Below the pieces are notes generated by a model that made no database searches, had not been told where the DNA came from, and saw only the letters and a list, made by a program, of their open reading frames with translations. Positions 48,501 through 64,000 of a DNA stretch of 64,000 nt are shown here, piece by piece. Both the position numbers and the translations under genes were made by a program. The stretch comes from Polyangium mundeleinium (GTDB lineage: Bacteria; Myxococcota_A; Polyangia; Polyangiales; Polyangiaceae). The stretch covers positions 3,341,001 through 3,405,000 of the forward strand of contig NZ_JAQNDO010000001.1 of assembly GCF_028369105.1 (NCBI RefSeq). Direction: 5' to 3'. Each line of letters begins with the position of its first letter. Within the stretch, counting starts at the first letter, position 1.

Positions 48501-48661
48501 TCTTCGAGCAGGCCCTCGACATCGCGCGCAAGGTCGGAAATCGTCGGGACGAGGGCAAGATCCTGGGAGACCTCGCCAGCTTGCACCACCAGCAGGGCCA
48601 CGTGAACGAGGCCGTCGCGCTCCAGGAGCAGGCGCAGGCCATCGCCCGCGAGCTCGGCTGA
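45566..48661 (+). CDS. Soluble adenylyl cyclase-like protein (C1-C2 cyclase, P-loop NTPase, TPR)
   Basis: 1031 residues with the domain order of animal soluble adenylyl cyclase. C1 (about 22-200) has the metal-binding aspartates Asp30 (FIDIPGFT) and Asp80 (GFAGDAF), but its partner Asn/Arg motif is absent. C2 (about 230-400) lacks the first Asp (VFVSFDQ) but carries Asn343 and Arg347 (ATNLAAR). Together they can form one composite active site, as in sAC. A P-loop NTPase follows (GEPGLGKS at 439-446, then LEDAHWAD), then TPR-like helices (from about 900). It makes cAMP from ATP; bicarbonate response is inferred from the sAC likeness. The ATG at 45566 opens the conserved C1 domain. The SulP gene is 125 bases downstream. 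Confidence 0.88.
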   Translation: MNPLVPDFILYQDTRGRTEGNFAAAALFIDIPGFTNLTEKLFPHGREGAEILAGTLRFYFDPLIGAVHGLGGIIVGFAGDAFTAVFPHSTGRNVAEHALAAALKMRQFFLNRAVRATRFGTFPFSYKVGLSWGAVEWGIVRTSPERAYCYFRGPAIDKCASIEHHAEKGDILMDLAFQQRIAGRAVTPIAEGVLKLADTSDMPLPPVPRVRPQGEGAHFVPPGIRDMPPQGEFRHVTSVFVSFDQIPSFEDLIKLVDVEASRYGGTFTGVDSGDKGINCLIHFGAPITHENDTERALDFALGLRKNAPKGMQIRAGITHGLRYAGFNGGTERQEFACLGPATNLAARLMMSAPWKELWCDGEVSGRAQGTHHFKPAGDHLFKGFEQPISVYVLDRKRVAVQREFLARGLVGREQELKDLTTHLGPIFARENAGIVYVDGEPGLGKSFLVDTYRRKLEDNKKERPLLWIDARCDQTLRSSLNPFEYALKEYFVQSSATGREEKHVNFDDVLDLLIDRLPDSEASLKRELEKARSVFAAMIGIRWDGSVYERMDPKLRFAGTLAALSLWLRAESLLQPVIFHLEDAHWADGDSLEAVSHVAQAVKDCPVAILCTCRNNDDGSPFRIELDENVPQHAVTLGPLSREKLRELAEGLMGGPVSEVLAMFLSENANGNPFFAQEIMTYWLEANQLAGKKKEKEDTGVSTPSIFLLPNDVNSLLIARLDRLEPKVKRVVQAAATLGREFDLRILSRMMDDDPHLPELVRVGEEQCIWSPMSKGRYRFSNVLLRNAAYEMQSRARLQELHRRAAEAIEVAHEDDLTGQLTALGRHWQRAGQPKRARWYFLAGARKAAERYAHGEAKRLYRAYFKLTTEPTLESVVVRYEFGRDVLELQGRHEEAMQEHVRVLDEAQKLGDRASEALGLLGLGRVNWATGRIESARAFYEQALTTAREAQSLWNEGLALKSLAVLHKEQGRFELARTFFEQALDIARKVGNRRDEGKILGDLASLHHQQGHVNEAVALQEQAQAIARELG

Positions 48662-48786
48662 GTTCAAACGATCGCTGTCCCGACGCGGCGCCTGTGGGCT
48701 CGGGGGCGACCATGTGCGCTGCTCTTGCCAGGGGCGCCCCTGTTCGCCGAAGATGACGGCCCCTCGAGCTTCTCCCGACGACGACG

Positions 48787-51024
48787 ATGGAAGGGCAGCA
48801 GAGTCCGCCGATGCCTTCGACGCCCGCGCCCTCCCTCAGGCGTGGGCTCCGTGGATCGCGCGTCCTGTCCGGCCTCTTCGCGGGGGCCATGTCGGGCACC
48901 CTCGTCGCCACGTTCAGCATCACGCTCGCGGCGCTCATTTTCTCCGGCAATCTGACGAGATACCTGCCGGCGGGCATCGGCATGGCCCTCGCGGGATCGG
49001 CCATCATCGGCGCGATCGTCGCCCTTGGCAGCTCCTACCGCGCCGTCATCGCCGCGCCGCAGGAGAACACGGCCGTCGTCCTCGCCCTCGTCGCCTCGGC
49101 GATCGGCAGCCGCATCACGGCCAAGGGCGGCGATCCTTTCCCCACGATCGTCGCGGTCTGCTCGCTCTCGGCGCTCGTCACGGGGGGCCTCTTCCTCGTC
49201 CTCGGCGGCCTTCGCCTCGGCACCCTCGTCCGCTTCATCCCGTATCCTGTCGTCGGCGGGTTTCTCGCGGGCACGGGATGGCTCCTCTTCACGGGATCCA
49301 TCTCGGTCATGGTGGGCACCGAGTTCTCCCTCGCGTCCTTGCCGCTGCTGCTCCGCGCGGATGCGATCGTCAACTGGGTCCCGGGCCTCACGCTCGGGCT
49401 CTTCTTGACGATCCTGCTCCGGCGCTACCACCACTTCCTGCTCTTGCCGGGCCTGCTCGTCTTCGCCGTCGCCATGTTTTACGGCGTCCTGTACGCGGCG
49501 GGCGGCACGGTCGCCGAGGCCCTCGATCGCGGCATGCTCCTCGGCCCCTTCCCGAGCGGCGCCCTCTGGCCGCCGATGGCGCCGTCCGAGGCGCTGCGCA
49601 TCGACTGGGCCGAGATCGGCGCGAATGCGGGCAACCTCCTCGCGGTCACCATGCTCGCGACGATCTCGATCCTCCTCAACGCCTCGGGCCTGGAGATCGC
49701 GACCGAGCGCGAGATCGACCTCGATCGGGAGCTCCGCGCGACGGGCGTCGCGAACCTCGCGGCGGGCCTCGGCTTCGGCATGGTCGGGTACCTCTCGCTC
49801 AGCGAGTCGACCTTGAACCACAAGGCCGGCGCCGAGAGCCGCATCGCGGGCATCCTCTCCGCGGGCATCTGCGCCGCGGCCCTCTTCTTCGGCGCCTCGG
49901 TCTTCTCGTACTTCCCGAAGCCCGTCCTCGGCGGCTTGCTCGTCTTCCTCGGCGCGGGTTTCCTCCTCGAAACCCTCTACGACTCCTGGTTCCGCCTCCC
50001 GCGCGTCGAGTACGGCCTCGTCGTCATCATCCTCGTCGTCATCGCCTGGATCGGCTTCCTCCCGGGGATCGGCGTCGGCATCGTCGTCTCCTCCGTCCTC
50101 TTCGCGGTCAACTACAGCCGCATCGACGTCATCAAGCGCGCGGCGGTCGGCTCTGACGTCCGCAGCAACGTCGAGCGCAGCGCCGGGGACGAGCTCACGC
50201 TGGAGGAGCGCTGCAGGGAGCTCTACATCCTCCAGCTCCAGGGCTACATCTTCTTCGGCACCTCGTACTCGCTGCTCAAGCACGTGCACCACCGCATGCT
50301 CGGCGACGATCCCGCCACCACGCGGTACGTCTTGCTCGACTTCCGCCACGTCGACGGCATCGACTCTTCGGCGGTCCTCTCCTTCGTCCGCATGCGCAAG
50401 CTCGCAGGATCGAACGGCGTCACGCTCGTCCTCACCGACCTCCCGAGCGCCGTCCGCAACCAGCTCGAGCGGGGCGGGTTTGCGGATGGATCGAAGCGCG
50501 TCCGTTTCTTCCCCGACCTCGATCATGGCCTCGAGTGGTGCGAGAACGAGGTCTTGCGCGCTGCGCCGCCGAGCATGCTCCCGCCGACGAAGCTCGTCGA
50601 CGAGCTCGAAAGTGTCTTCCGCACCCGCGAGTTCGTCTCTGGCTTCCTCGAATACCTCGAACGCGTCGAAGCGCCCGCGGGCTACCAGATCTACCGCCAG
50701 GGCGACGTCTCCAAGGACCTTTACCTCATCGAGTCCGGCGAGCTCACGGCCTGGCTCGAGCTCGACGGCGGCAAGACCAAGCGCCTGCGCACGATGGGAC
50801 CGGGCACCGTCGTCGGCGAGTCGGGCCTCTACCTCGGCACGCGCCGCTCGGCCACGGTCGTCACCCTCCGCCCCACGGTCCTCTATCGCCTCTCGCTCGG
50901 CGCACTCGAGCGCATGACGCGCGAAGCGCCGCACCTCGCGGCTTCGTTCCACCAGTTCGTCGCTTGCCTGCTCGCCGAGCGGATGGTCCTCGCGACGGGC
51001 GCATCGAAGACCCTCTTCAATTGA
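48787..51024 (+). CDS. SLC26/SulP anion transporter with STAS and cyclic-nucleotide-binding domains
   Basis: 745 residues. About 10-12 transmembrane helices (residues 30-450) of the SulP/SLC26 family with the conserved LSESTLNHKAGAESR segment; then a STAS domain (about 475-590: YILQLQGYIFFGTS, LLDFRHVDGIDSSA); then a cNMP-binding domain (about 620-735) with IYRQGDVSKDLYLI and the phosphate-binding cassette GESGLYLGTRRSATVV, keeping the Glu and Arg that contact cyclic nucleotides. It likely transports sulfate, bicarbonate or another anion under cAMP control. Its position after a sAC-like cyclase supports that link. The vWA gene starts 19 bases after its stop. Confidence 0.9.
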   Translation: MEGQQSPPMPSTPAPSLRRGLRGSRVLSGLFAGAMSGTLVATFSITLAALIFSGNLTRYLPAGIGMALAGSAIIGAIVALGSSYRAVIAAPQENTAVVLALVASAIGSRITAKGGDPFPTIVAVCSLSALVTGGLFLVLGGLRLGTLVRFIPYPVVGGFLAGTGWLLFTGSISVMVGTEFSLASLPLLLRADAIVNWVPGLTLGLFLTILLRRYHHFLLLPGLLVFAVAMFYGVLYAAGGTVAEALDRGMLLGPFPSGALWPPMAPSEALRIDWAEIGANAGNLLAVTMLATISILLNASGLEIATEREIDLDRELRATGVANLAAGLGFGMVGYLSLSESTLNHKAGAESRIAGILSAGICAAALFFGASVFSYFPKPVLGGLLVFLGAGFLLETLYDSWFRLPRVEYGLVVIILVVIAWIGFLPGIGVGIVVSSVLFAVNYSRIDVIKRAAVGSDVRSNVERSAGDELTLEERCRELYILQLQGYIFFGTSYSLLKHVHHRMLGDDPATTRYVLLDFRHVDGIDSSAVLSFVRMRKLAGSNGVTLVLTDLPSAVRNQLERGGFADGSKRVRFFPDLDHGLEWCENEVLRAAPPSMLPPTKLVDELESVFRTREFVSGFLEYLERVEAPAGYQIYRQGDVSKDLYLIESGELTAWLELDGGKTKRLRTMGPGTVVGESGLYLGTRRSATVVTLRPTVLYRLSLGALERMTREAPHLAASFHQFVACLLAERMVLATGASKTLFN

Positions 51025-51043: not shown

Positions 51044-53164
51044 ATGAACATCCTCCCGAGGCTCCTCTGCACTGCGACGATGGCCGGGGCGCTCCTCGCG
51101 CCGCGCCTCGCGTCGGCCGACGGCGCGCTCCGTACGGTCCTCGTCATCGACGCCTCCTCGTCGATGCGCGGCACCGATCCCAAGGAGCTCCGCAAGGTCG
51201 CGGCCGAGCTCTTCGTCGACCTCACGCGCAGCGGCGACGAGCTCGCGGTCGTTGGCTTCGACGGCGCCGCGCGCGACGCCATGGCCTCCCTCGTCGTCGT
51301 GCGGACCCCCGACGATCGCGCGCAGAGCAAGCGCGCCGTCCGCGCCGTCGGCAACGACGGCAACTGGACCGATTTCACCGCCGGCCTCGAAGGCGCGCGC
51401 CGCCTCCTCGAAGCCAAACCTCGCGCCCCCGGCGACCAGGACCTCATCGTCTTCCTCACGGACGGCCGTTGTGATCCCGACCCGCAAGGCCCGCTCGCAG
51501 AGACCACGCGCGCGTCCGGCGGCAAGGCCCGCGTCGAACAAGTTTGTCAGGCCAAGGTGCTCGACGACCTCGTCCCTTCCCTCGGGAAAACCCGCATCTA
51601 CGCCGTCGGGTTGTCCAAGAGCGCCCCCCGCGCCTTCCTCGACGACCTCGGCCGCCGCACGGGGGGCATCGGCGTCGCCACGGACCGCCCCGACGAGCTC
51701 CCGCGCCTCTTCGCCGACATCTACGCCCGCCTCTTTGGCAGCCGCCTCTCCGAGGGCGCGTCTGCGCCTTCGATCTCCATCCCGATCGACGAAGGCGCGA
51801 GCTCGCTCGACCTCGTCCTCGTCGGCCCCCCGAAGCTTGGCATGCGCCTCTTCGACCCGAAGGGCGCGGAGGTCTCCACCACGGGCGATCGTCCCGGCGT
51901 GTATTTCTCGGACAACCCTGCGTACCGCCTCCTGCGCCTCGACGCCCCCGAGCCCGGCGCCTATCGCCTCGACGTCTCCGGCGGCGGCACCGGGGGCCGG
52001 TATGCGGTCCTGCAGAACCTCGATTTGCACCTCACGTTCCCGGGATTGCCCGAAGTTTTCGAAATTGGCAAAAGCGCCACCCTGAAACTCCGCCTCGCGA
52101 CCCCGGGCGGCAAAGCCCCCTCGAAAACCTTCCTCGACCGCCACGCGTTTTCCCTCGCGTCCGTGGAAGGCGTGAATGCCTGCGACGACGCGGCCCTCGC
52201 CTCGGCCGCTCCCGTGCCTCTCCGCCCGCTCCCGGACGGCTCGTTCGAGGCCACGATCACGCCCTCGAAAAAAGGCGCCTTGTGCCTCCTCGGCCGCATG
52301 AGCCCGGGCGAGTCGGGCGTCCTCACGCGTGAGGCCCAGAGCGCTGCGCTCCGCGTCATTCCCCCGATTCACCTGAAAGCCGCCGTCGCCACCCCGTTTG
52401 GCGTGGTCAAACAGGACGGTCGCGCCGTCGCCATCATCTCCCTCGAAGGCAGCGATGTCGGCGAGCTCATCTTCGCCGACATCGAGCACGAGCACCTCGA
52501 GAACGAGGGCAACCGCGAGGGTATGTCGCTTTCGCATCGCGACCTCGAGATTGGCCCTGCCACGAAGAAAGAATTCGGCATCAACCTCGCCGTCGGCCGC
52601 GACGCGCCGCCGGGCCCGCGTGAGGTCACGCTCCGCCTCGTCCCGAAGAAGCCCGTCGGCTTCGAGGATCGCGCGGTCACCGTCCGCGTCCCGGTGACGA
52701 TCGTCCCGCTCACCTTCTGGGAGCGCCACGGCCGCAACATCCAGCTCTTTCTCGTCGCCTTCTTCACCTTCTTCCTCGTCATCGGCCTCATGCTCCCGGC
52801 GCGGTTCCGGCGCACGGCGATCCTCCATTACGAAGATCGCCGCGACCCCGATCTCCCGCGCCAGGCCAAGTTCCCACTCGGGGCGAAGGCGCGCGCGGGC
52901 CTTTATCGATCGGCGCGCGTCACCATCGGCCCGATGGGCCCCATGCCGCGCGGCGGCGTCGTCGAGCTCCGCGCGGGCCCCGGCGGCGCCGTCCTCGCTC
53001 GCCCTGTCGCGGGCAAACGCGCGACGGAGCTCCCGCGCGAGGACGATTTCGGCGCGGGCGAGCCCCGCGAGCCGCGGCTCGTGAATGGCTGGTTCCGCGT
53101 CTCGCCGGGCGTGAAATACGCGATCGAAGGGACGGGGCTCGTCTTCTGGTGGAGTCCGCGCTGA
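51044..53164 (+). CDS. Exported vWA-domain protein with C-terminal membrane anchor
   Basis: 706 residues. Signal peptide (cleavage near ASA, residue 25), then a von Willebrand A domain with the MIDAS motif DASSS at about 36-40 and a conserved LTDGRCDPD, a large beta-rich region (about 240-560), and a transmembrane helix near 563-590 (IQLFLVAFFTFFLVIGLML) followed by a cytoplasmic tail of about 115 residues. It should act as a metal-dependent protein-binding module at the periplasmic face. It may belong with the transporter upstream or with the tubulin-like cluster 2 kb downstream; vWA proteins accompany tubulin-like genes elsewhere. Confidence 0.85.
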   Translation: MNILPRLLCTATMAGALLAPRLASADGALRTVLVIDASSSMRGTDPKELRKVAAELFVDLTRSGDELAVVGFDGAARDAMASLVVVRTPDDRAQSKRAVRAVGNDGNWTDFTAGLEGARRLLEAKPRAPGDQDLIVFLTDGRCDPDPQGPLAETTRASGGKARVEQVCQAKVLDDLVPSLGKTRIYAVGLSKSAPRAFLDDLGRRTGGIGVATDRPDELPRLFADIYARLFGSRLSEGASAPSISIPIDEGASSLDLVLVGPPKLGMRLFDPKGAEVSTTGDRPGVYFSDNPAYRLLRLDAPEPGAYRLDVSGGGTGGRYAVLQNLDLHLTFPGLPEVFEIGKSATLKLRLATPGGKAPSKTFLDRHAFSLASVEGVNACDDAALASAAPVPLRPLPDGSFEATITPSKKGALCLLGRMSPGESGVLTREAQSAALRVIPPIHLKAAVATPFGVVKQDGRAVAIISLEGSDVGELIFADIEHEHLENEGNREGMSLSHRDLEIGPATKKEFGINLAVGRDAPPGPREVTLRLVPKKPVGFEDRAVTVRVPVTIVPLTFWERHGRNIQLFLVAFFTFFLVIGLMLPARFRRTAILHYEDRRDPDLPRQAKFPLGAKARAGLYRSARVTIGPMGPMPRGGVVELRAGPGGAVLARPVAGKRATELPREDDFGAGEPREPRLVNGWFRVSPGVKYAIEGTGLVFWWSPR

Positions 53165-53184
53165 GCTTCAGGAGGTCTCACGAT

Positions 53185-53667
53185 ATGAACCGAAGGGTCT
53201 TGGCTGGCTTGTTTCTCCTTTCGATGACCGCCGTGGCATGCGGCTCGGAGGGCGGCGGAAGTGGCGGCAGTGGAAGCGGCGGGAGCGGCGGGAGCGGCGG
53301 TGACGGCGGGAGCGGCGGTGACGGCGGGAGCGGCGGCGCGGATCCCTTCGCCCAATGCGAGGGCCGGCCCTACACCGCGACGGTCGTAGCTCCCACGGAC
53401 GGCGCCACGGACGTCCCCGTCGACGTCAAGATGCGAATCGCGTACTCGGACGGGATCCCCGATCGGTTCGAGCGGGTGACGGGGCCTGGAGACATGTTCG
53501 TCGCGTCGAAGGACTTTGGCTCCGATGCCATGGGGGATTACACGATCTACGAGCTCTCCCCGGCGACCCAGTATACGTTGACGGCGGGGTGGTTCTGCGT
53601 GATCGGCGGCGGCGCGAACCAGAAGGAGTACGTGCTCGCCACCTCGACGTTCACCACCGCGCCCTGA
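53185..53667 (+). CDS. Gly-rich lipoprotein with Ig-like domain
   Basis: 160 residues: signal peptide with lipobox AVACG, a GGSGG-type linker of about 40 residues, then an Ig-like beta domain (ATVVAPTDGATDVPVDVKMRIAYSDG) of the kind seen in bacterial surface proteins. ATG at 53185 with GGAGGT 8 bases upstream. It follows the vWA gene by 20 bases and closes this gene series before a terminator. Confidence 0.8.
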   Translation: MNRRVLAGLFLLSMTAVACGSEGGGSGGSGSGGSGGSGGDGGSGGDGGSGGADPFAQCEGRPYTATVVAPTDGATDVPVDVKMRIAYSDGIPDRFERVTGPGDMFVASKDFGSDAMGDYTIYELSPATQYTLTAGWFCVIGGGANQKEYVLATSTFTTAP

Positions 53668-53741
53668 GCGCGGAAAACGGCGCCCCGACCCGCCCGGCGG
53701 CGATCCTGAAAGCTCGAACCGGCGGACGACCTGTCCTCGCC

Positions 53742-53764
53742 GAAAAAACGGCTCCGTTTTTTGT
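53742..53764. terminator. Bidirectional terminator-like hairpin
   Basis: AAAAAACG / CGTTTTTT (or nine bases with a two-base loop) forms a stem whose own arms supply the A- and T-runs on either strand. It is placed between the Ig-like lipoprotein and a gene-poor stretch. Confidence 0.7.
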
Positions 53765-54336
53765 CGCCGGACCCATCCCTTTCGAAAAACGGGAGCCGCA
53801 CCGGCCACACGCTCCTTCCTCTCCAGGCCGCGCCTCGCCTCGGCGGGCCACGGACCGGTCGAGCGCCCGTTCGTGTCGTCGTTTTTTGGAAACGACCCTC
53901 CCGCGGCGGACCGAGGGGAGGCGCGTCCGCGCGAAGAAGCGTCGCTCGGCGACGGGGGGAGGCGTTTGTTCGGGAGGAAGGGTCCTCGGCGGGATCGGAC
54001 GTCCGGCGAGCGCCGGAGGGTGCGTCGAGAGCCTTATGTTTCCCCGGTTCCGCCGCTGCCGTTGCCTTTGGCCGGCGCTCGCGTCGGGGATGATCTCGCC
54101 ATGGCGCGCCTTCCAGAGCGCGTCGTAGAGCGTGTCGGCCTGCTCTTCTTCGGGGGGTGATCGGGGGGCTGCCTCGTCCTCGCGGCGGGTCTCTCGCCAC
54201 GGGACGACCGTTCGAGTTCGGCGAGGAGGGGCACGACCACGATCGTCACGACCTCCCCGAGCGGCCCCCGCTCCGGCATCACCTGCCCGTTCGCCGACGC
54301 GTTCACGACGGCGCCACGCGCGCCGCCGGAAGATTA
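53765..54336. other. Gene-poor stretch with a possible decayed gene
   Basis: About 570 bases without an intact gene. Only the minus-strand remnant at 54070..54306 shows coding-like codon use; the rest shows no RNA gene, repeat or promoter I can support. Confidence 0.5.
54070..54306 (-). pseudogene. Frameshifted gene remnant
   Basis: On the minus strand one frame reads NASANGQVMPERGPLGEVVT and continues IVVVPLLAELERSS (54306 to about 54205), then coding-like codon use moves to another frame reading EEEQADTLYDALWKARHGE (about 54165-54075). Both parts have strong G/C in third positions. This fits a gene broken by a frameshift. No family recognised. Confidence 0.4.
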
Positions 54337-54384
54337 CCGCTTTCCACGCGCCTCTGGTACGCTCTGCGCCCCCCGCTTTCGGGG
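54337..54384 (+). promoter_or_regulatory. Conserved leader element, copy A
   Basis: CCGCTTTCCACG and CTCTGGTACGCTCTGCGCCC are shared exactly with copy B upstream of the tubulin-like gene. Here the element ends in a hairpin (GCGCCCC...GGGGCGC). It lies 61 bases before the TerB-like start. Probably a shared promoter or regulator site. Confidence 0.6.
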
Positions 54385-54444
54385 CGCCTGGGCAGCGGCA
54401 CAGAATCATCGCATCCAACGACGATGATAACATCGAGGTGAAAT

Positions 54445-54963
54445 ATGACGACGAATCGAGAGCTTGGTTTTTTGTGGTCGCTCAAGCAGAAGTGCAATGT
54501 CGACAAATTGCCGACGCTCGAGGCGTTCGATGGCTATCTGAAGGCGATTCTCACATGCGCCAACGGAGACGGCAACCTGACGCCCGCTGAAAGAGAGTGG
54601 GTGCTCGGGCATGGGTCTGCGCTGGGCGCGCTCGACTCGTTGCTGGACGAGCTCAAGACCTACAAGGCCGACGAAGACATCGAGAAGCTGCTCGCCCGGA
54701 GCCCGCAGGCGGATGCTTCACGGCGCGTCCTCATTTACGACGCGATTCGAGCTTGCAGCGCCGATGGAGAATACAACGACCGGGAGAGGGCCACTGTGCG
54801 CAAGATGGGCACGAAGCTCGGGATCTCCGAGGATCTGATCCGCCAAATCGAAGAAATCGCCCTCGAAGAAGCCCGGCTGTGGGAGCGACGGGTGAAGCTC
54901 GTGTATCCGGCGGGGACGCCTCCGTCGTTGCGCGCGGACACCTCCTCGTCAGACCCGGCGTGA
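54445..54963 (+). CDS. TerB-like protein
   Basis: 172 residues, cytoplasmic, helical. Two TerB-type segments with the acidic DGNLTPAEREWV and SADGEYNDRERATVRKM motifs, the latter the classic metal-binding signature of the TerB family. TerB domains occur with vWA proteins and ATPases in envelope-stress and conflict systems. ATG is preceded by GAGGTG 5 bases upstream. It shares a leader element with the tubulin-like operon 250 bases downstream and may be co-regulated with it. Confidence 0.8.
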   Translation: MTTNRELGFLWSLKQKCNVDKLPTLEAFDGYLKAILTCANGDGNLTPAEREWVLGHGSALGALDSLLDELKTYKADEDIEKLLARSPQADASRRVLIYDAIRACSADGEYNDRERATVRKMGTKLGISEDLIRQIEEIALEEARLWERRVKLVYPAGTPPSLRADTSSSDPA

Positions 54964-55142
54964 AACCCCCGGCGTGACGCCGAGGGGACCCCCCTTGTGC
55001 GTCGGGATACTCCCGAGGAGCTTCCTGCAACAGGGAAACGCTTGGGAGCGATGGATACGTATCCCTCGAAGAGGGTGCGATCGATCCCGAAGAGCGTGAA
55101 CGGTTCGAGGCGCACGTTCTGAACGCCGCCGCCTGAAAAGTT

Positions 55143-55197
55143 CCGCTTTCCACGGCTCTTCCGTCTCTGGTACGCTCTGCGCCCCCCGCTCTCGGGG
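55143..55197 (+). promoter_or_regulatory. Conserved leader element, copy B
   Basis: Second copy of the leader at 54337: CCGCTTTCCACG, then a nine-base-longer spacer, then CTCTGGTACGCTCTGCGCCC and the TCGGGG end. The element ends 12 bases before the tubulin-like ATG and its last bases provide the ribosome-binding site. Confidence 0.6.
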
Positions 55198-55209
55198 AGG
55201 GGAAATCGC

Positions 55210-58200
55210 ATGCCGCTCAGCGAAAAGAAGATCGCCCCCGCGTTTTTCATTGGTCTCGGGGGCGCGGGAGGCGCCATCGTCGACGAGCTCGCCCGCAAGG
55301 TGAAGCAGGAAGACTCGTTCGAGCGATACAAGGACCTCGTTCACTTCTTCGCGTTCGACACCGACGCCGACGACCTCGCGCGGCTCGTCTGGATCGACGC
55401 GGCCCACAAATTCGTCCTCTCGGACTTCGACAAGCCCGAGTACGTCGAGCTCAAGCGTGGAAAGCTCCACGCCAAGGCCGATCCCCTCTTCGAGCAGTGG
55501 TGGCCCGCGTGGTACCAGCCCCGCGCGCACCGCGGCAAGGGCGCCGGCCAGATCCGCATCGAGAGCCGCCTCTCGCTCTACCACCACCTCGAAAACGATC
55601 GCGCCAAGATCCTCGAAACCCTGGAGAAGGCGATCCGGCGCGCCTACGACGTCCACAACCCCTTCCGCGCCAACAAGGCCGCCAAGATCCACATCTATGC
55701 CTCCCTCGCCGGCGGCACCGGCTCCGGCGGCTTCGCCACGATGGCACTCACGGTCCGGCGCCTCCTCGGCGGCCAGCGTGGACATCGCATCATCGGCACG
55801 TTCGTCCTGCCGAACGTCTTCCGCGGCAAGGGCCTGCCGCCGAACCAGTTCGACAAGATCATGTCGAATGGCTACGCGGCCCTCCAGGAGCTCGAGCTCC
55901 TCCAGAGCGCCGGCCCCGCCGCGCCCGTGGAGTTCCACTACGACCCGGACAACCCCGAGCGTGTCCTCGTCGATCGGCCTCCGTTCGATCAGGTCTATCT
56001 CGTCGAGGAGAAGACCGAGAGCGGCGTCGTCCTCGCCGACTCGCAGGAGGTCTACCCTGCGATCTCCGACGCCGCGCACGCGCAGATCTTCACCTCCATC
56101 CTCGATCGCGAGGGCTCGACGCTCGACAACGACACGCGCGAGCTCATGCAGCTCGACGAGCAGGCCTTCACGAAGTCGTTCGGCTCCTTCGGCATCGGCG
56201 CGCTCGTCCTGCCCGTGGAGGACGTCCTCGAACACGCGGCGTTGAAGCTCGGCGCGGAGCTCTTGCTCGCGGCCGTGCCCGGGGGCAGCGCGGCCCTCGG
56301 CGACGGAGCCGATCTCGACGCGGCAGATCTTGCCTTCGTCCGTGGCCTCGAGAGCAAGGCCGAAGGCAAGGGCGAAGAGTCCGAGCCGTATCGCCGCGCC
56401 GTCGAGTGGGCGCGCGGCGGCGGCAGCGGCGGCGAGGGCACGATCGGCGCGTTCCTCCGCCGCACGCGCGAGGACGTCGCCAAGCGCATCGACGAGGCCA
56501 TCAAGCTGCGCGGCTGGGACGAGGCCGAGCTCTCGGCATTCGAGCGTGATCCCGAGCGCGTCCGCTCCGAGACCGCGCAGGCCTTCGCCGCGCTCAAGGT
56601 CCAGGTCGGCAAGAGCGAGGACGCCGCGCGCGAGCGGGCACGCGAGGCAGCGCTGCGCGTCGCGGCCGAGTCCGGCGAGATCGCGCTCACCGAGCTCGCG
56701 AAGGACAAGGGCCCGACCGAGGCGCGCTACTTCCATGCCTTGCTCCGGCAGGCCGTCGCGGCCGAGCAGGAGACCGCGCGCAAGGCGTACGAGCGTGGCC
56801 TCGTCCTCACGGACGGCCGCCTCGGCGAGGACTTCAAGCGCCGCGTCGACGAGCTCGCCGCGGCTGCGCCGGAGACGCTGCTCGAAAAACTTCCGGGCCG
56901 GGAAAACGATTACTTCGAGGTCGCCGCCTCCTTCGCTGGCTGGTACCGCGACGTGCTCGACGGCCTCCGCGCCCGCATTCGCGCGAATGCCTTGATCGAG
57001 TACTTCTCGGCCGTCCTGCGCGAGCTCGATCGTCGCCGTTTGTCGAGCTTCCACTTCTTCGCGCGGGTCGATCGTATCCAGCGCCGGCTCGAAGAACGCG
57101 CGGCCCGCATCGTCGCCGCGGGCGGCCGTCGGCACGAGGGCGGAGACGCGAACCGCTACGTCCTCGATGTCGAAGTCCTCCAGGATCACCGCACCGGCCA
57201 TCGCCTGTGGGATCACCTCTATGCGCGCCTCGTGCGCCCGAGTGATCTCCAGCTCTCGGGCGCGCTCTCGCGCCTCGCGTCGGTCGCGAGCCAGGGCGGC
57301 GCCGAGCAGGATATCGAGCGCCGCATCATCGACGATCTCGTCCAGCTCGCCTCCGCCGCGCTCCGCGGCCGCATCGCGGGTGGGCTCGAAGAGCGCGGCC
57401 TTCGCATCGACGAAGAGCTCCGTTTCGAGGCCCAGCTCGCCTCGGCCACGCGCAGGCTCGAACGCCGCGGCGGCCCGCTCCTGCCCGCGTCCGATCCGCA
57501 GTGGATCGAGGAAGCACGCCGCACGCCCGAGGAGGAGATCCAGAAGTACGTCAAGGACAAGCTCGAATTCGCGGCTGCGAAATGCGCGCCTTTCCTGACG
57601 CTCGGCGCGGGCGCGCCGCTTCTGCCCGACAAGGCCTACGTCGTCATGCACGGCGATTACGAGCGCACGCTCGGGCCCATGCTCGCGCACCTCGCCACGC
57701 ACCGCGTCGATCGTGGCCAGATCGTCGCGTCGGACCACCCGTACGAAATCATCTTCTACCTCGCGCGGCTCGGCTGCCCGCTGCACGCCGTGAAGAGTTT
57801 GTCCGACTATGAGCGCCGGTACCGCGCGGTGAAGGACAAGGAGCTCGCCGAAGGCGCGAAGGTGCCGGGTTTGCCCAAGGGCGTGCCGCAGATCCCGCTG
57901 CACATCGACCGCAACTGGGAGGGCGCGCCGGACGCGGACACGCGCCTCTTCCGCATCTCGATCGACGGCGTGCGCGAAAACGACTCCAAGCTCGCCTGGA
58001 CCGAGCGGCTTTCGCATGTCCAAAAGAAGGCCGGCGAGGAGCAGGTCCGCACGGACGACATTCGTGATTTCACGCTCGCCATCGCATTCGGCATCATCCG
58101 CCGCGCCGAGGGCGTCTACCTGATCGAGGACCCGGATCTCCCGGAGGACCGCCGCAAGCTCGGGAAATTCCGCGACCAGGCATTTTCGAGTTACCGTGGC

Positions 58201-58428
58201 CGCATCGACGCGCAAAAGACCTGGGTGCGTCGCGCGTATGCCGCGGCGCTCCTGCGGATCGAGGAAGACCGCAACCTCGCCGAGCTCGTCTCGCTCCTCG
58301 CGGTGCACGTCGCCGACATCGAGCGCCTGGTCAAACTCGCCGACGGCGCGGGCGGCAAACCCGAGCTCGATCACCTCGCCCGCGAGCTCGAATGCCTCGC
58401 GGGGTTCCGCCGGGAAAAAGGGCTCTGA
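55210..58428 (+). CDS. Tubulin-like (FtsZ-superfamily) GTPase
   Basis: 1072 residues. The N-terminal 350 residues form a tubulin/FtsZ-like domain: nucleotide-binding start FIGLGGAGGAIVDEL (13-27) and the tubulin signature GGTGSG at 168-173 (ASLAGGTGSGG). The long C-terminal part is helical and charged. This matches the 'tubulin-like' family, for which genome context has suggested a membrane-remodelling system with a vWA protein. It should bind GTP and probably polymerise. ATG with GGGGAGGGG upstream. First gene of an operon with the degenerate paralog (15-base gap) and the helicase-like gene. Confidence 0.88.
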   Translation: MPLSEKKIAPAFFIGLGGAGGAIVDELARKVKQEDSFERYKDLVHFFAFDTDADDLARLVWIDAAHKFVLSDFDKPEYVELKRGKLHAKADPLFEQWWPAWYQPRAHRGKGAGQIRIESRLSLYHHLENDRAKILETLEKAIRRAYDVHNPFRANKAAKIHIYASLAGGTGSGGFATMALTVRRLLGGQRGHRIIGTFVLPNVFRGKGLPPNQFDKIMSNGYAALQELELLQSAGPAAPVEFHYDPDNPERVLVDRPPFDQVYLVEEKTESGVVLADSQEVYPAISDAAHAQIFTSILDREGSTLDNDTRELMQLDEQAFTKSFGSFGIGALVLPVEDVLEHAALKLGAELLLAAVPGGSAALGDGADLDAADLAFVRGLESKAEGKGEESEPYRRAVEWARGGGSGGEGTIGAFLRRTREDVAKRIDEAIKLRGWDEAELSAFERDPERVRSETAQAFAALKVQVGKSEDAARERAREAALRVAAESGEIALTELAKDKGPTEARYFHALLRQAVAAEQETARKAYERGLVLTDGRLGEDFKRRVDELAAAAPETLLEKLPGRENDYFEVAASFAGWYRDVLDGLRARIRANALIEYFSAVLRELDRRRLSSFHFFARVDRIQRRLEERAARIVAAGGRRHEGGDANRYVLDVEVLQDHRTGHRLWDHLYARLVRPSDLQLSGALSRLASVASQGGAEQDIERRIIDDLVQLASAALRGRIAGGLEERGLRIDEELRFEAQLASATRRLERRGGPLLPASDPQWIEEARRTPEEEIQKYVKDKLEFAAAKCAPFLTLGAGAPLLPDKAYVVMHGDYERTLGPMLAHLATHRVDRGQIVASDHPYEIIFYLARLGCPLHAVKSLSDYERRYRAVKDKELAEGAKVPGLPKGVPQIPLHIDRNWEGAPDADTRLFRISIDGVRENDSKLAWTERLSHVQKKAGEEQVRTDDIRDFTLAIAFGIIRRAEGVYLIEDPDLPEDRRKLGKFRDQAFSSYRGRIDAQKTWVRRAYAAALLRIEEDRNLAELVSLLAVHVADIERLVKLADGAGGKPELDHLARELECLAGFRREKGL

Positions 58429-58443
58429 GGCCCCGGGGGGCGC

Positions 58444-60804
58444 GTGCGCGGAATCGACGATCGAACGAGGCGCCCCACGCTGCTCGTCGGCGTGGGCGCC
58501 TTCGGCCGTGACGTCGCGCGCGCGGCCCGCGGCGCCTCGCTCGTCGCGCTCGATGTCGCCCTCGGCGCGGATGGCAAAACGGACGGCGCCAGGCTCGACC
58601 CTTCTGCGAAAGACCCGTATGCGCCGGTCGTGAAGCGCGCCGAGGACGCCCTCGCCGCGTTGCTCGACGTCGGCCATTACCTCGGCTCCTCGTCCCCCAC
58701 GGATCCGCGTGGCCCGCTCTGCGACGTCCTCGTCGTCGCCGACCTCGGCGAGCCGTCCGTCGCGCCCCTCGTCGCGCCCCTCGCCGCCGCGCTCGCTTCG
58801 GGCCTGCGCCGCGCCTTTTCGGCCATCCTCCGCTCCGGTGACGGCGCGCTCGTCGTTTGCCCCCTCCTGGTTTGCCCCCGTGCCGGCGATCGGGCCGTGA
58901 TGGCGCGGGCTGCCGCCTCCCTCGCCGACCTGTCCCGCCAAACCTCCTCCTCGGCCCGCGCGCGCCTCGGCGGCCGCGTGTATCTCGTCGAGGACCAGAG
59001 CGGCAAATACCTCCTCTCCCGCGCCGAGATGGTCCGCTCCTTTGCCGCGTTCCTCTCGACGTTGTGCTTGCCGCCCGTGCGTGACGACGATCGCGGCGTT
59101 CGTCGCCTCGTCGAGGACGACGGGCCGCCCGGCACGTTCGCCACCTTCGCCTGCGCGAGCCTCGCCTTTGATCACGCGGCGTTCTCGCGGATCGCCGCCG
59201 CGCGCCTCGGCCGTGAGATCCTCGCGCTCCTCCGCTCCCCCGTGGATCCGTCCGCGCTTGACATTGCCTCGCTCGCCGCGCCGCTCGTTCCCACGCAGAG
59301 CCGCCTCGACACCGAGCTCGGCGAGGCCGAACCGCTCGCCGAATTGCTCGCGCCGCCGACGATCGACGTCCCCCCGATCGAATGGGACGACGACCCCGAG
59401 ACGCTCCTCGAACGCAAATTCGGCTCGCTCTACCGGGCGCGCGCCGAGGCCACGATCGCCGCGTTCCGGGACGAGGTCGAGCGGTTCCGCATGGACAAGC
59501 TCGCGGCCGCGCTCGAACAACGCGGCAAGGTCCGCCTCGAAAGCGGCGAGCGCGCCATCGAGACACGTGTCGCCGAGCTCGTCGCCGAGCGCCCCACGGG
59601 CCACGCGCGGGCCCTCTTGGTTGTACGGGACGCACGCACCCGCGCCAAGGGATACCTCGACGAGGTCGTCCGCGCGATCGAGGCCCCCGAGCTCTCGCCG
59701 CTCCCGGCCTCGCCGCTCGCGGAAAAACTCGCGGCCCTGGAGGAAGCTATCTCCTATCGCCCGCGCCCGCGCCGCATGGCCGTCCTCGGCGCGGCGCTCG
59801 GCCTCGCCTCCGCGCTCCTCCTTTCGGGCGTGCTCGTCTCCTCCTATCGCGCCTTGCTCGCGCCCTTCCCACCTTTTTTCGACGCCGTCTCGTCCTTGCC
59901 GGACGGCCGCCTCCGCCCTTTTTTCACCCCGCCCGTCCCGCTCCTCGCCGGCGCTGCCCTCTCGGCCTATTCGACGGGCTATCGCCTCTGGAAGCACCGT
60001 AAACGTCACCACAACTGGGCCTGCGAGGCCCGGGATGACCTCGCGCAGTCGATTGCGCGGCACATCCGTGAGGACCTCGTCGGCCATTACGAGCGCCGCT
60101 TGCATTACGCGCGCCTTCTCTGGGTCCAGCGCGTCCTCGCTCACCTCCTCGGCCGCATCGAGCAGATCATCGCCGCGCTCGAAGCCACGCGCGCCGCCCT
60201 CGCCGCTGCCGACCGCGCCTTGCACCGCGAAGAACACGAGGGCGAACGAAACCTCTTCTCCGGGGGCATGCTCGCCTCCTCGGTCCTGCACGCCTCCATC
60301 GTCGGCCCTGACGACGTCGACGCCATTTACGCCGAAATTCGCCCGCCCGAGCCGAGCGCCGCGGCCGAACGCTGGCTCCGCGAGAGCCTCGCCGAGCGCC
60401 CCTGGACCGAGGCCCCGTTCGCGGCGCACGACGATCTCCTCGTCTTCTGCCACGCCGAGCTCGAATCCTTCGAGAAGACCTCGCCGTTCGAGGAAGGCAC
60501 ATCCGCGCTGCACAAGGCTGCCGAAGCCTCGGCGAAGGGCTTCCTCCGCCGCCTCTTCCTCAAGCTCTCGCCCGGCCTCGAGATCGTCCCGAAATATGCG
60601 GCCGAGGCGCAGGCTCCGCTTCGCCTCCTCTTCGCGCCGCCCGAGGCGCGCAAGCTCGTCGACGCCGCGCTTGCCGAGGGCGGCTTCGAGGGCGCCTGGG
60701 ACGTGCGTGCCCTCTCCCCGGATCCCGATTCGATCCTGCTCGTCGTCGCGCGCACCGGCTTGCCGCTCGAAGCGCTCGCTCTTACGCGTTCGGAGGAATC
60801 GTGA
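58444..60804 (+). CDS. Degenerate tubulin-like paralog with transmembrane segments
   Basis: 786 residues. The N-terminus LLVGVGAFGRDVARAA (about 13-28) resembles the first nucleotide-binding loop of the preceding protein, and VVADLGEPSV (about 97-106) sits where that protein has ASLAGGTGSG, so the GTP signature is lost. Two transmembrane helices lie in the second half (about 440-470 and 495-515), then a helical region. Likely a non-hydrolysing membrane partner of the tubulin-like GTPase. The GTG start lies in GC-rich sequence with a GGGGGG site. Its stop overlaps the next start as GTGA. Confidence 0.75.
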   Translation: MRGIDDRTRRPTLLVGVGAFGRDVARAARGASLVALDVALGADGKTDGARLDPSAKDPYAPVVKRAEDALAALLDVGHYLGSSSPTDPRGPLCDVLVVADLGEPSVAPLVAPLAAALASGLRRAFSAILRSGDGALVVCPLLVCPRAGDRAVMARAAASLADLSRQTSSSARARLGGRVYLVEDQSGKYLLSRAEMVRSFAAFLSTLCLPPVRDDDRGVRRLVEDDGPPGTFATFACASLAFDHAAFSRIAAARLGREILALLRSPVDPSALDIASLAAPLVPTQSRLDTELGEAEPLAELLAPPTIDVPPIEWDDDPETLLERKFGSLYRARAEATIAAFRDEVERFRMDKLAAALEQRGKVRLESGERAIETRVAELVAERPTGHARALLVVRDARTRAKGYLDEVVRAIEAPELSPLPASPLAEKLAALEEAISYRPRPRRMAVLGAALGLASALLLSGVLVSSYRALLAPFPPFFDAVSSLPDGRLRPFFTPPVPLLAGAALSAYSTGYRLWKHRKRHHNWACEARDDLAQSIARHIREDLVGHYERRLHYARLLWVQRVLAHLLGRIEQIIAALEATRAALAAADRALHREEHEGERNLFSGGMLASSVLHASIVGPDDVDAIYAEIRPPEPSAAAERWLRESLAERPWTEAPFAAHDDLLVFCHAELESFEKTSPFEEGTSALHKAAEASAKGFLRRLFLKLSPGLEIVPKYAAEAQAPLRLLFAPPEARKLVDAALAEGGFEGAWDVRALSPDPDSILLVVARTGLPLEALALTRSEES

Positions 60805-63800
60805 TCGACGCGCTCCTCGCGCTCCTCGGCGAATGGTCGCGCCTCGCCCAGGCCAAACCCATTCGCACGAGCCTCGGCGGCATGGCCGTCGCCCTCGCCA
60901 TCCTCCTTTACCTGGGCGCCCTCGCCAAAGCCCGCTTCGAACTCCGCGCCGTCCGCGTCTCCACCGGCCCTCTGTTCGCCCTCGCCGGCCTCGTCGTCTT
61001 CGCGCTCTCGCTCGTCGTGGCGATCGTCGACGCCCTGCTCGCCCATTACGACATGCGGTTGATCGAGGAGCGCGTGCTTTTGCTCCTCGCGCCGGGGGAG
61101 GGGCGGGAAGCATACGAGGCTTTGCGCCGGATCCTCGCCCTCGCCGCGGGCGGGCGATTCGTGCTCCCCGGCCCCGTGCATTTGCCGCTCGCCTTGCTCC
61201 TCGGCGCCGCCGTGTACCTCGGCCTCGTTTTCTGGGCCGCGCGTACGCTCGAAGAGCTCGGCTCGCTCGAACAGAAGCCCGACGACGTCCTCGCGCGCGA
61301 GCGGCTCGAACAGCAAAAAGCCATCGCCAAGGCGCTCGCCGAGGGCCGGCCGCTCCCGGTCAAACCCGTCGAGAGCGCGCCGCTCGCCGACGATCGTTTT
61401 GGCCGCGTCTTCAAGCTCCTCGGCCACTGGACGAGCGTCGAATACGTCGAGGCGCGTTTCGTACGTTGGCAAGGTCCGCTCGTGTGGGCCCTGGCTGGCC
61501 TCGCCGCGCTCGCCCTCCCGGCCGCGCTCGCGGGACATTTTTCGGCCCCGCTCTGGGTCGGCGCCGCGATTGCGCTCGACGGCCTGCGCAGAAACCTCGC
61601 GACCCGTACGAAAAGCCCCGACCCGCCCGAGGCCGAAAAAAAGGAAGAACCGCCCGCGCCGAAGCCCGAGCTCCGCCCGCTCGTCGAGGCCATTCACGCG
61701 GCCCAGGGCCCCTTGCTCCTTCCCCCCGAGACGCCCGGCCTCGAGCCCGCCCGTATCTCGCCCGGGACTGATTTACGCGCCAAACGTCTGCTCGACGATC
61801 TCTCACGCGAGCTCGGCGCCGCAAAGGGGCTCTACGTCCACCAGGGCCTCGCGTGTGATGCCTTCGAGGACCGCAAGAACATCCTCCTTTGCACGCCGCC
61901 TCTGTCGGGAAAAACCACGACCCTCGACCTGCTCCTGTTTTACGCGCTCCTCGTCGAGGCCGAGAACGTCCTTTGGCTCGCGCCCTCCGCGGCCGCCGCG
62001 CGCGTGGCCGAGCGGCGTGTCCTCGCGCGGGCCGAGGCCTTGCGCTGGAAATGGAACGTCCACGCCGCGAACATCGCGTCCGGCGCAGGCGCGGCCGATC
62101 CGACGCACGCATCGCCCTCGCTCGTCTTCGCCGACCCCGAAGGCGTGCACCGCGAGCTTTGCGGCCGGCAAAAAGAATGGTCCGCGTTCCTCGGCGGCCT
62201 CGGCCTCGTCATCCTCCCGGACCTCGAAGAATGGCACGGCGCCCCCGGCGCGCACCTCGCCTTGCTCCTCCGCCGCCTCCGCCGCGCCGCCGCGCGCGCC
62301 TCCTCTCGCACGGTCGAACGCGGCGAGCGGATTCGTTTCCTTTGCACGGCCGATCCTTCCTTCCGCGACCTTGGCCAGCTCGGCGAGCGCCTCGTCGGCC
62401 GCCCCATGCTCGTGCTCGGCCCCGAGGTCGACGGCGCCCCGCGTCCGCCGATGATCTCGTATTTCCTCCCCCCGCGCCCGCGCGCCCAGGCCGACGTCCA
62501 CCCCGCCGTGCGTGCGCTCGGCGAATCCCTCGCGCAGGGTTTTTCCGCGGAGCTCTTCGGGTACGACGACGTCCTCTCGCGGGCCGACGTCGCGCAGGCA
62601 AACGAATGGACCCTCGGCCGCGACGTCGCGACGCGCGGCCGCGCCTTCGCCGAAGAACGCCACGAGCTCTCGCGCGCCCTCTCCGAGGCCGAAGTCGTCA
62701 TCGCCCGCGTCCGCGCCGCGACGTACGGAAAGAGCCCGATCCTCGCCGCCCACGTGGGCTTCCGCGCCGCCACCGTCCCCGAAGCGCGCGTCGCCGCCCT
62801 CGGCGCTGGCGAGCGTGTTGGCAAGGCCATCGCGCCTCCGAAGCCCGAGCCCAAAGAGGTTTCGCCGGACCAACCCGAAACCCCGCAATCGCCTGGCGAG
62901 CTCCAGGCCGACGCCATCGCGCAGACGGATCTCGAACGGAAAGTCCTCGTCCTCTGGCAGCCCGATCCCGACCCGTTCTCCTCGCTCCTCGCGGTCGAGC
63001 GCCCGCTCTTCCGCCACCCCGACCTCGACCTCGGCTGCGCGCTCGTCGTCGATCCGCTCGCCGAGGCCATTCAACGCGCGCACCTCCGGGCGGCGCTCGT
63101 CGAGGCCTCGTGGAGCGAGGACGAGCTCGCCGCGGACTTCTCGCGCCCCCTCGTGCAAAACGAGCTTTCCCCCGCGGAAGGCACTTCCCTTGAGGCCACG
63201 CGCCTCGCGCGGACCGTGCACACCGTCCTCGATCCGGAGACCGGCGAGCGCCGTGAGGTCCTCCGGGTCTCCGCGGCCGGCGAGGCGCACCCGGCCCTTT
63301 GCTTCGACGTCGCGGCCGAGCCTGCGCGGCTCGTCGATCGCCACACGGGCGAGGTCCTCTACGGCGTCGAGCGCGCGCGTATGCTCTCGGCCGCGTATCC
63401 CGGCCGTATCTTCGTCTTCCGCGGCGGCCGGTACGTGGTCAAACCCGCCTCCGAGCAGGACGGCCTCGCCGCCGGCCGCGTCGCGTGCGAGCGCGAGGAG
63501 CGCTTGCTCATCACGAGCCCCATTCGCGAGGTCTCCGTCACGCCGATCGAGCGCCGCAAAGATGCCTCGCCCAAGGAGGGCAGGGAAGGGGAGCGTGCCG
63601 AGCGCCGCGCCGAGCCGCTCCGATCGCTCGGCGGCGCGCCGTTCGTCTTCGAGCGTAGGCTCGTCGAGGTCGAGGAGCAGAGCCTCGGCCTGCGCCGCCA
63701 CGGCCCCGACGGAAAGCCGCGAGACGTGACCCTCTATGCCGAGCCGCTCGTGCATCGTTATGCCACGAAGGCCGCGGTCCTCGCCCTGCCCGAGACCTCG

Positions 63801-64000
63801 TTCGGCGCGATCGGCGAGGGCACGCTCCACGCGCTCGTGCACCTCTTCCGCGTCACCTTGCCCGCATTCGTGTGGTGCCGCGAGGAAGACCTGCTCATCG
63901 TGCGCGCCGCGCGTTTTGGCGCTGCTGGGACACCTGCGATCGCGTTTGTCGACGCGCATCCGGGCGGCGTGGGTTTCTCCGAGGCGGTGACGCTCGACGT
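60801..64000 (+). CDS. Membrane-anchored HRQ1/MrfA-like helicase-related protein, partial
   Basis: At least 1066 residues, running off the window. The N-terminal 300 residues hold about four transmembrane helices. A superfamily-2 helicase-like region follows: VHQGLACDAF, Walker A TPPLSGKTT at 365-373, ADPEGVHREL, then motif II as LPDLEEWHG (Asp474) where MrfA/HRQ1 helicases have IDELHxYxG, and a CTADPSF motif III. The late region VVDPLAEAIQRAHLRAALVE and FVDAHPGGVGF match the C-terminal part (DUF1998-type) of that family. ATP binding may remain but the catalytic Glu is displaced, so unwinding is doubtful. GTGA overlap with the upstream gene and a GGAGGAATC site. Confidence 0.75.
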   Translation, partial: MIDALLALLGEWSRLAQAKPIRTSLGGMAVALAILLYLGALAKARFELRAVRVSTGPLFALAGLVVFALSLVVAIVDALLAHYDMRLIEERVLLLLAPGEGREAYEALRRILALAAGGRFVLPGPVHLPLALLLGAAVYLGLVFWAARTLEELGSLEQKPDDVLARERLEQQKAIAKALAEGRPLPVKPVESAPLADDRFGRVFKLLGHWTSVEYVEARFVRWQGPLVWALAGLAALALPAALAGHFSAPLWVGAAIALDGLRRNLATRTKSPDPPEAEKKEEPPAPKPELRPLVEAIHAAQGPLLLPPETPGLEPARISPGTDLRAKRLLDDLSRELGAAKGLYVHQGLACDAFEDRKNILLCTPPLSGKTTTLDLLLFYALLVEAENVLWLAPSAAAARVAERRVLARAEALRWKWNVHAANIASGAGAADPTHASPSLVFADPEGVHRELCGRQKEWSAFLGGLGLVILPDLEEWHGAPGAHLALLLRRLRRAAARASSRTVERGERIRFLCTADPSFRDLGQLGERLVGRPMLVLGPEVDGAPRPPMISYFLPPRPRAQADVHPAVRALGESLAQGFSAELFGYDDVLSRADVAQANEWTLGRDVATRGRAFAEERHELSRALSEAEVVIARVRAATYGKSPILAAHVGFRAATVPEARVAALGAGERVGKAIAPPKPEPKEVSPDQPETPQSPGELQADAIAQTDLERKVLVLWQPDPDPFSSLLAVERPLFRHPDLDLGCALVVDPLAEAIQRAHLRAALVEASWSEDELAADFSRPLVQNELSPAEGTSLEATRLARTVHTVLDPETGERREVLRVSAAGEAHPALCFDVAAEPARLVDRHTGEVLYGVERARMLSAAYPGRIFVFRGGRYVVKPASEQDGLAAGRVACEREERLLITSPIREVSVTPIERRKDASPKEGREGERAERRAEPLRSLGGAPFVFERRLVEVEEQSLGLRRHGPDGKPRDVTLYAEPLVHRYATKAAVLALPETSFGAIGEGTLHALVHLFRVTLPAFVWCREEDLLIVRAARFGAAGTPAIAFVDAHPGGVGFSEAVTLD

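Follow-up and report, generated by a model that had tools for sequence, protein, structure and literature searches.

The tubulin-superfamily family FtsZl1 of Makarova and Koonin (2010), which corresponds to Pfam Tubulin_2 (PF13809; PMC9871819), is linked by genomic context to vWA proteins (PMC2875224). The prediction that it runs a membrane machine dates from 2010, and the cited literature gives no physical link between the GTPase and the membrane. Here we analyze a 64,000-nucleotide stretch of the Polyangium mundeleinium genome (“the window”; C1:3341001-3405000 in a genome of 13.25 Mb and 2 contigs) that ends in three adjacent genes, which we call P1, P2 and P3. Very probably these form one operon, downstream of a gene for a probably periplasm-facing vWA protein, and its products are P1, a soluble Tubulin_2 protein in which the GTP signature is intact, P2, a diverged relative of P1 that lies in the inner membrane and lacks the GTP loop (a pseudo-tubulin), and P3, a membrane-anchored, degenerate member of the YprA helicase family (a pseudo-helicase). 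This gene set points to a membrane-linked, cytoskeleton-like machine that is common to several bacterial groups and hitherto unstudied, and P2 is a candidate for the link between FtsZl1 and the membrane, which makes the question testable.

The operon shares with the FtsZl1-vWA operons the P1 family itself, an adjacent vWA gene, kinase genes near some loci and a membrane context. It differs in that the main text of Makarova and Koonin (PMC2875224) describes neither a helicase nor a tubulin-fold partner, whereas the module in the window has both; the unnamed families A1-A2 and B1-B9 in Additional File 6 of that article could include P2 or P3. A sequence-only reading of the window had pointed to the published tubulin-vWA link, and the vWA gene at 51044-53164 confirms it here: this gene belongs to the module, which therefore reaches past the 55210-64000 segment that holds P1 to P3. 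The GTPase and OmpA partners of the FtsZl1-vWA operons were not seen among the recurrent clusters and the subset of neighbors scanned, a subset to which the other statements on neighbors below also refer. Tubulin proteins with a coiled coil and membrane vWA proteins are found as well in the tubulin-vWA-GTPase conflict systems of Firmicutes and Actinobacteria (the GAP1-N2 systems; Kaur et al. 2020, PMC7159879), whose Firmicutes versions have two tubulin genes. The tubulin section of that article, however, has no loss of the GTP signature, no membrane pseudo-tubulin and no YprA relative, and no GAP1 GTPase with zinc ribbons was found among the scanned neighbors.

P3 aligns over nearly the full length of YprA and has the MZB domain, as do the YprA/MrfA helicases (6znp) and the defence clades surveyed by Bell et al. 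(2025, PMC12458937), in whose main text the word tubulin occurs 0 times. Unlike these helicases, P3 has added membrane segments and tubulin partner genes, and DExH and motif VI are lost in 42/42 relatives. DISARM, ARMADA and Druantia combine an active YprA helicase with a nuclease or methylase; in P3 the motifs are lost, and no recurrent nuclease or methylase cluster was noticed in the scanned subset. A known PADLOC system was rejected, as P1 has no match and P2 and P3 match only at E-values of 0.04 and 0.0013. The membrane tethers of FtsZ (ZipA, FtsA and SepF) have other folds; P2 would resemble them as a membrane protein that holds tubulin-type assemblies, but would itself be of tubulin fold. 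Gamma-tubulin and the BtubA/B heterodimers bind GTP, and resemble P2 as special tubulins paired with another; P2 differs in having lost the GTP loop and in being membrane-embedded. For the core of pseudo-tubulin and pseudo-helicase we found no description in the open-licence literature. The sequence-only reading had suspected that the composition of the operon is undescribed, which within that literature holds for this core and not for the vWA-FtsZl1 link, already known.

The operon and its three proteins

P1 (55210-58428, 1072 residues; the vWA gene, P1, P2, P3 and their features lie on the + strand) is followed after a 15-base gap by P2 (58444-60804, 786 residues), and the GTG start codon of P3 at 60801 overlaps the end of P2 by 4 bases (GTGA). 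P2 also starts with GTG. These positions agree with the tight linkage noted from the sequence alone. P3 is open at the window edge (60801-64000); with the adjoining genome sequence it has 1127 residues and ends at window-equivalent position 64184. Chance open reading frames were rejected, given strong coding scores (524, 327 and 421 for P1, P2 and P3) and the existence of relatives with the same gene order. Among named relatives, four Polyangium genomes come closest, with a P1 identity of 96-98%.

P1 matches Pfam Tubulin_2 at an E-value of 1.2e-48 (166.6 bits against a curated cut-off of 27) and keeps the GTP signature loop T4, GGTGSG, at residues 168-173 (55711-55728), as had been claimed for it. 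The loop is present in 55/55 aligned P1 relatives, a count biased by the way in which the loci were found, namely with two patterns of which one, AGGTGSG[AG]F, contains the motif. The alignment (A5) holds 54 of the 68 listed relatives and the window's own P1, and the listing left out P1 rows of ≤950 or ≥1300 residues. A DN pair at residues 306-307 is likewise invariant in all 55. The predicted model of P1 (pLDDT 85.8, pTM 0.72) matches CetZ (3zid_A; Z 23.6, 4.5 Å over 314 aligned residues, model residues 8-889) and tubulin (9cpc_KP; Z 23.3, 3.9 Å over 330 aligned residues, model residues 8-922 against chain residues 1-421). In PDB sequences, the P1 profile reached only CetZ 3zid, at 0.0056. 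The secondary structure of the model fits the description of FtsZl1, with an N-terminal FtsZ-like domain, a coiled-coil middle and a mostly helical C-terminal part. The source genome has one Tubulin_2 gene; that P1 could be the division FtsZ was rejected, as a separate canonical ftsZ lies elsewhere in the genome (3.6e-124).

P2 is a tubulin-fold relative and, by the Pfam and signature tests, not a member of Tubulin_2: it has no Pfam match at E-values up to 1, PF13809 included, and GG-x-G-S/T-G occurs in 0/33 aligned P2 relatives (alignment A4, comprising 32 relatives and the window's own after five long rows of 37 were left out). When A4 is compared with A5 by hhalign, the two families match with a probability of 94.9% (E 4.3e-8) over 219 columns, and the site of the lost loop, residues 99-106 of P2 (ADLGEPSV, 58738-58761), lies with its ADLGE opposite the AGGTGSG of P1; many A4 rows read ADLGE or similar at this place. 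Smaller P2 and P1 alignments gave a shorter match (93.3%, 85 columns), and a second P2-type group of three sequences (A2) matches the first at 99.7% over 696 columns. VIA-align, used as a second look at the Foldseek list for the AlphaFold model of P2 (pLDDT 82.8, pTM 0.68), placed all 50 listed rows in the tubulin/FtsZ superfamily, the best being CetZ (3zid_B; Z 19.1, 3.8 Å over 269 aligned residues, P2 residues 9-786). Going by this model, P2 has a two-domain tubulin/FtsZ fold and resembles tubulin well beyond the first loop. The sequence-only reading was right that GGTGSG is lost and that an intact tubulin is paired with a degenerate one, and too narrow in limiting the likeness to the first loop. 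The top Foldseek matches of P2, alpha-pore toxins and dynein-containing complexes, were rejected for root-mean-square deviations of about 30-40 Å over long helices. Searched against PDB sequences, the P2 profile gave three matches at E-values up to 10 (best 0.051), with no tubulin among them, and Foldseek against viral models gave none at 0.001.

A T1-like GxGxxG loop is kept in 26/33 aligned P2 sequences and reads GxGxFG in the window (residues 16-21, 58489-58506). GxGxFG resembles the nucleotide motif of TrkA/KtrA proteins; the P2 pocket may bind a ligand other than GTP.

In P1 the structural matches start at the N-terminus and extend past residue 870, yet no more than about 300-350 residues align, which implies an interrupted fold. 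In the models, a helical insertion of ~450 residues appears to break the tubulin folds of P1 and P2 at one shared position, at about residues 356-807 of P1 (56275-57630; boundaries read by hand from DSSP) and 264-725 of P2 (59233-60618). By DSSP, a strand-helix pair precedes the insertion in both proteins and a strand, a helix and two further strands follow it; we take these elements to be S7-H9 and S8-S10 of tubulin. For the C-terminal domain of FtsZl1, Makarova and Koonin detected no tubulin/FtsZ similarity (PMC2875224); the model suggests that a C-terminal tubulin domain is present but displaced behind the insertion.

Inside the P2 insertion lies a membrane hairpin, at about residues 442-515 (59767-59988). 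Two membrane helices had been claimed for P2 from the sequence. In the window protein, a plain hydropathy scan detects a single one (447-465), the second falling below its threshold, and the model places helices at 442-472 and 498-607. Of 49 P2 relatives of >600 residues, 27 have two helices by the scan, 16 have one, 5 have three and 1 has none. Basic residues flank the hydrophobic hairpin on both outer sides, and therefore the head and stalk of P2 should be cytoplasmic.

By phmmer, P3 matches YprA (6znp) at 3.6e-16, and a 22-row family profile (A6) does so at 2.1e-37, profile positions 278-1022 aligning with YprA residues 26-750. This is nearly the whole length of YprA, so P3 has the RecA1-RecA2-OB-MZB length of the YprA/MrfA family, and the P. 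fumosum orthologue exceeds the MZB cut-off (35.5 vs 24.2 bits). The Walker A motif is kept in the window (SGKT, residues 369-372, 61905-61916), and motif II is altered to PDLE in place of DELH (residues 473-476, 62217-62228). Among 42 distinct P3 relatives, six of them from Polyangium, none keeps DExH and none QxxGRxGR; a Walker A-like G[KR][ST] or GRR is found in 29/42, 13 of which have GK[ST]. The canonical controls in the same alignment keep all three motifs (3/3, five further control rows having been dropped as empty). With both motifs lost in 42/42, P3 was rejected as an active helicase. The helicase kinship, changed motif II and membrane region that had been read from the sequence are borne out; the suggested role as an ATPase adaptor is unlikely, because DExH and QxxGRxGR are lost throughout and GK[ST] is present in only 13/42. 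At least three hydrophobic segments were found by the plain scan in 36/36 P3 proteins adjacent to P2. The window P3 has five, some near the N-terminus, and one of the five, in the C-terminal domain, is probably no membrane helix. Its C-terminal four-cysteine cluster (CPARCAAPEGCPSC) recurs in 17/37 called P3 (five of these cut by contig ends) and in 2/3 controls.

Conservation of the gene set

We sampled the best 80 of 111 P1 relatives from a scan of 84,980 species genomes; many of the records that carry the module are metagenome-assembled. P2 follows P1 in 59/67 loci with at least 600 bases of room (57 by script, plus L161 and L178, which its distance rule missed), the eight without it being L170, L171, L172, L175, L183, L184, L186 and L187. 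P3 follows in 36/48 loci with 4.5 kb of room, so the three-gene order, whose conservation the sequence-only reading had proposed to check, is kept in relatives; the conserved order extends over Myxococcota, Acidobacteriota and gammaproteobacteria. The spacing is also tight, with a P1-P2 gap of <60 bases in 49/58 pairs and a P2-P3 overlap of exactly 4 bases in 26/36. All three genes are present together in Myxococcota and also in one Methylococcaceae record (L173) and four records of Acidobacteriota type (L159, L169, L176, L177), whereas P1-P2 with no P3 detected was seen in two Thiodictyon records (L165, L166). All three proteins are longer in a subgroup that includes Lujinxingia (L157-L163, L178, L182), reaching about 1270, 1490 and 1570 residues for P1, P2 and P3.

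Across 282 Myxococcota genomes, P2 was found in 37 and Tubulin_2 in 68 (65 above the curated cut-off), with both in 36. The myxobacterial co-occurrence that was to be checked is thus nearly complete from the side of P2 (36/37), the sole genome with P2 only being G341; Fisher's test gives p 2e-25 with relatedness ignored. In the 192 genomes of the host's class, a single-sequence P2 search found 10 genomes and PF13809 found 27. The three proteins also diverge together. Over 32 loci (Polyangium L108-L111 left out), distance-matrix correlations are 0.67 for P1-P2, 0.65 for P1-P3 and 0.80 for P2-P3, to which shared genome ancestry contributes, and the highest of 500 permutations for any protein pair was 0.24.

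Proposed mechanism and rival explanations

We put forward a mechanism for the whole module tentatively, giving it somewhat less than an even chance. GTP-bound P1 would assemble head to tail, as tubulins do, and the tubulin-like head of P2 would bind the end or side of this assembly and hold it at the inner membrane. Because P2 has no GTP loop and no counterpart of the P1 DN pair, it would act as an anchor or cap without GTP turnover and not as an ordinary subunit. P3 would serve as a scaffold of YprA architecture without a motor, and the vWA protein would relay a periplasmic or metal-dependent signal to the assembly, with Ser/Thr kinase, PP2C phosphatase and FHA proteins adding control in some species; the output would probably be local organization or remodeling of the cell envelope. 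More speculative, and more likely wrong than right, is the bolder claim that P2 is a dedicated membrane-embedded pseudo-tubulin, which lost GTP binding, kept the fold and carries transmembrane helices in an inserted stalk, and which nucleates or caps its partner tubulin at the inner membrane together with a retired-helicase scaffold and an outside vWA sensor, as an undescribed trans-envelope tubulin device. If this is true, there is a tubulin fold with an inserted stalk of ~450 residues and membrane helices, and a helicase lineage has turned membrane partner without its catalytic motifs, a branch absent from the main text of the 2025 YprA survey (PMC12458937).

Several observations weigh against this proposal. 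We found no evidence in the cited literature of filaments of the Tubulin_2 family. Twelve of the 48 loci with room have no detectable P3, which therefore is not always needed, and 32 of the 68 Tubulin_2-bearing Myxococcota genomes have no P2 detected at the threshold used. When we opened the loci of 14 of these 32 genomes, along with two P2-positive ones, 7/14 had neither P2 nor P3. As for the other seven, L188, L189 and L195 have a weakly similar gene in the place of P2 (E 9e-3, 2e-4 and 1e-10) together with P3 (2e-43, 1e-45 and 2e-31), L199 and L201 have a P3-like match only (4e-4 and 1e-8), and in L192 and L198 the sequence ends at the tubulin gene, which makes them uninformative; in 6/16 opened loci the P2 profile weakly touches the tubulin itself (best 7e-5). 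On the side of the fold, the A2 subgroup alone does not match P1 (2.7%), and Foldseek by itself lists helical pore toxins first for P2, with tubulins at an E-value of about 0.07.

The main rivals are a polymer-free switch complex and a conflict system. In the former, which we consider rather unlikely, P1 would be a GTP switch that forms no filament and regulates, as a monomer or as a heterodimer with P2, a fixed trans-envelope signaling or transport complex of the vWA protein, P2 and P3. It would suit a gene set in which three of the four products are membrane proteins and which at some loci has recurrent kinase, PP2C and FHA neighbors, and an insertion of this size may not allow P1 to pack into a lattice easily; transmembrane transport or signaling was indeed proposed by a reviewer of Makarova and Koonin (PMC2875224). 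Yet P1 shows no variation in GGTGSG or in the DN pair, which we read as a T7-like catalytic loop, and GTP hydrolysis across a subunit contact would lead one to expect this. Still less likely, in our judgment, is an anti-phage or anti-competitor system akin to those of Kaur et al. (2020), with a sensor complex, a regulated tubulin assembly and a helicase relative derived from YprA-type defence. In its favor, tubulin with vWA is a conflict theme in that work (PMC7159879), DISARM, Dpd, Druantia and ARMADA are built around YprA helicases, the host bacterium is multicellular and the distribution is patchy (37/282 genomes). The motor motifs of P3 are lost, however, and PADLOC has no match for P1 and weak ones only for P2 and P3. 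When 30 of the 38 listed flanking proteins were scanned with PADLOC, four had matches at 1e-5, namely to an AbiLi-like type (L153), which is the one clear defence type, to kinase models (L147), to a subtilase (L112) and weakly to PbeA (L113), and among the neighbors examined we saw no recurring cluster of nuclease, methylase or effector genes.

In TubZ-type partition systems a tubulin works alongside a DNA-binding protein, and an operon of this type, in which P3 still binds nucleic acid and DNA is moved or anchored at the membrane, would account for the retention of most of the YprA length in P3, the OB/MZB end included. We regard it as highly improbable, since the motor motifs are lost in 42/42 P3, and the operon is chromosomal with no plasmid gene noticed among the scanned neighbors. 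Least probable of all is that P2, instead of being a tubulin, is a TrkA/RCK-type Rossmann protein whose membrane anchor is a coiled coil. GxGxxG in 26/33 P2 is what TrkA proteins have, and KtrA is the second match of the P2 profile to PDB sequences (E 0.085, columns 10-57); against this stand the hhalign match of P2 to P1 over 219 columns, the structural rows, all 50 of the tubulin superfamily, and an insertion point that is the same as in P1.

The vWA gene and other neighbors

The vWA gene (51044-53164) encodes a membrane protein of 706 residues (Pfam VWA_2, 6e-11) whose family lies directly upstream of P1 in relatives, 44 of the 65 loci with 3 kb of room having it there. Its topology, read by eye, comprises a signal-peptide-like start, the metal-site motif DASSS, a single hydrophobic segment around residue 575 and a tail in the cytoplasm; DxSxS is intact in the window and, by a simple pattern, in 34/69 vWA relatives. 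The gap between the vWA gene and P1 is ~2 kb in the window (53165-55209) and <130 bases in most relatives with the adjacent pair. A TerB-like open reading frame lies inside this gap at 54472-54963 (TerB 6e-4, below the cut-off). The number of vWA genes per locus varies from one to four, an Acidobacteria record having four consecutive vWA-type genes upstream of P1 (L169:720-9884).

Directly upstream of the vWA gene and on the same strand (45566-51024) are genes for a nucleotide-cyclase/AAA/TPR protein and a SulP-STAS-cNMP transporter, which cluster in five loci only, those of the window and Polyangium. Elsewhere, clusters of Ser/Thr kinase (c5), PP2C (c7), FHA (c12) and vWA-FHA (c11) genes recur, each named from one to three scanned members. 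In several myxobacterial loci such genes lie near the module, for example a Ser/Thr kinase at L136:1416-3967, a PP2C phosphatase at L143:651-2279, a zinc-ribbon FHA protein at L125:20971-22908 and a vWA-FHA protein at L135:18425-19858, and these neighbors suggest phospho-control of the module.

In Plesiocystis pacifica, which is among the species of the 2010 FtsZl1 study (PMC2875224), the gene after P2 looks, as read from its sequence, like a PAS/histidine kinase (L124:15977-17512). No P3 was detected there, which could explain why the link to the helicase went unnoticed in this species. In Acidobacteriota and Methylococcaceae records, a coiled-coil-like protein of about 780-810 residues is encoded directly after P3 (L169:18631-21060, L173:8807-11140, L176:18736-21078, L177:10991-13408). 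The one member scanned, from L169, has no Pfam match, and the protein is possibly a fifth component of the module.

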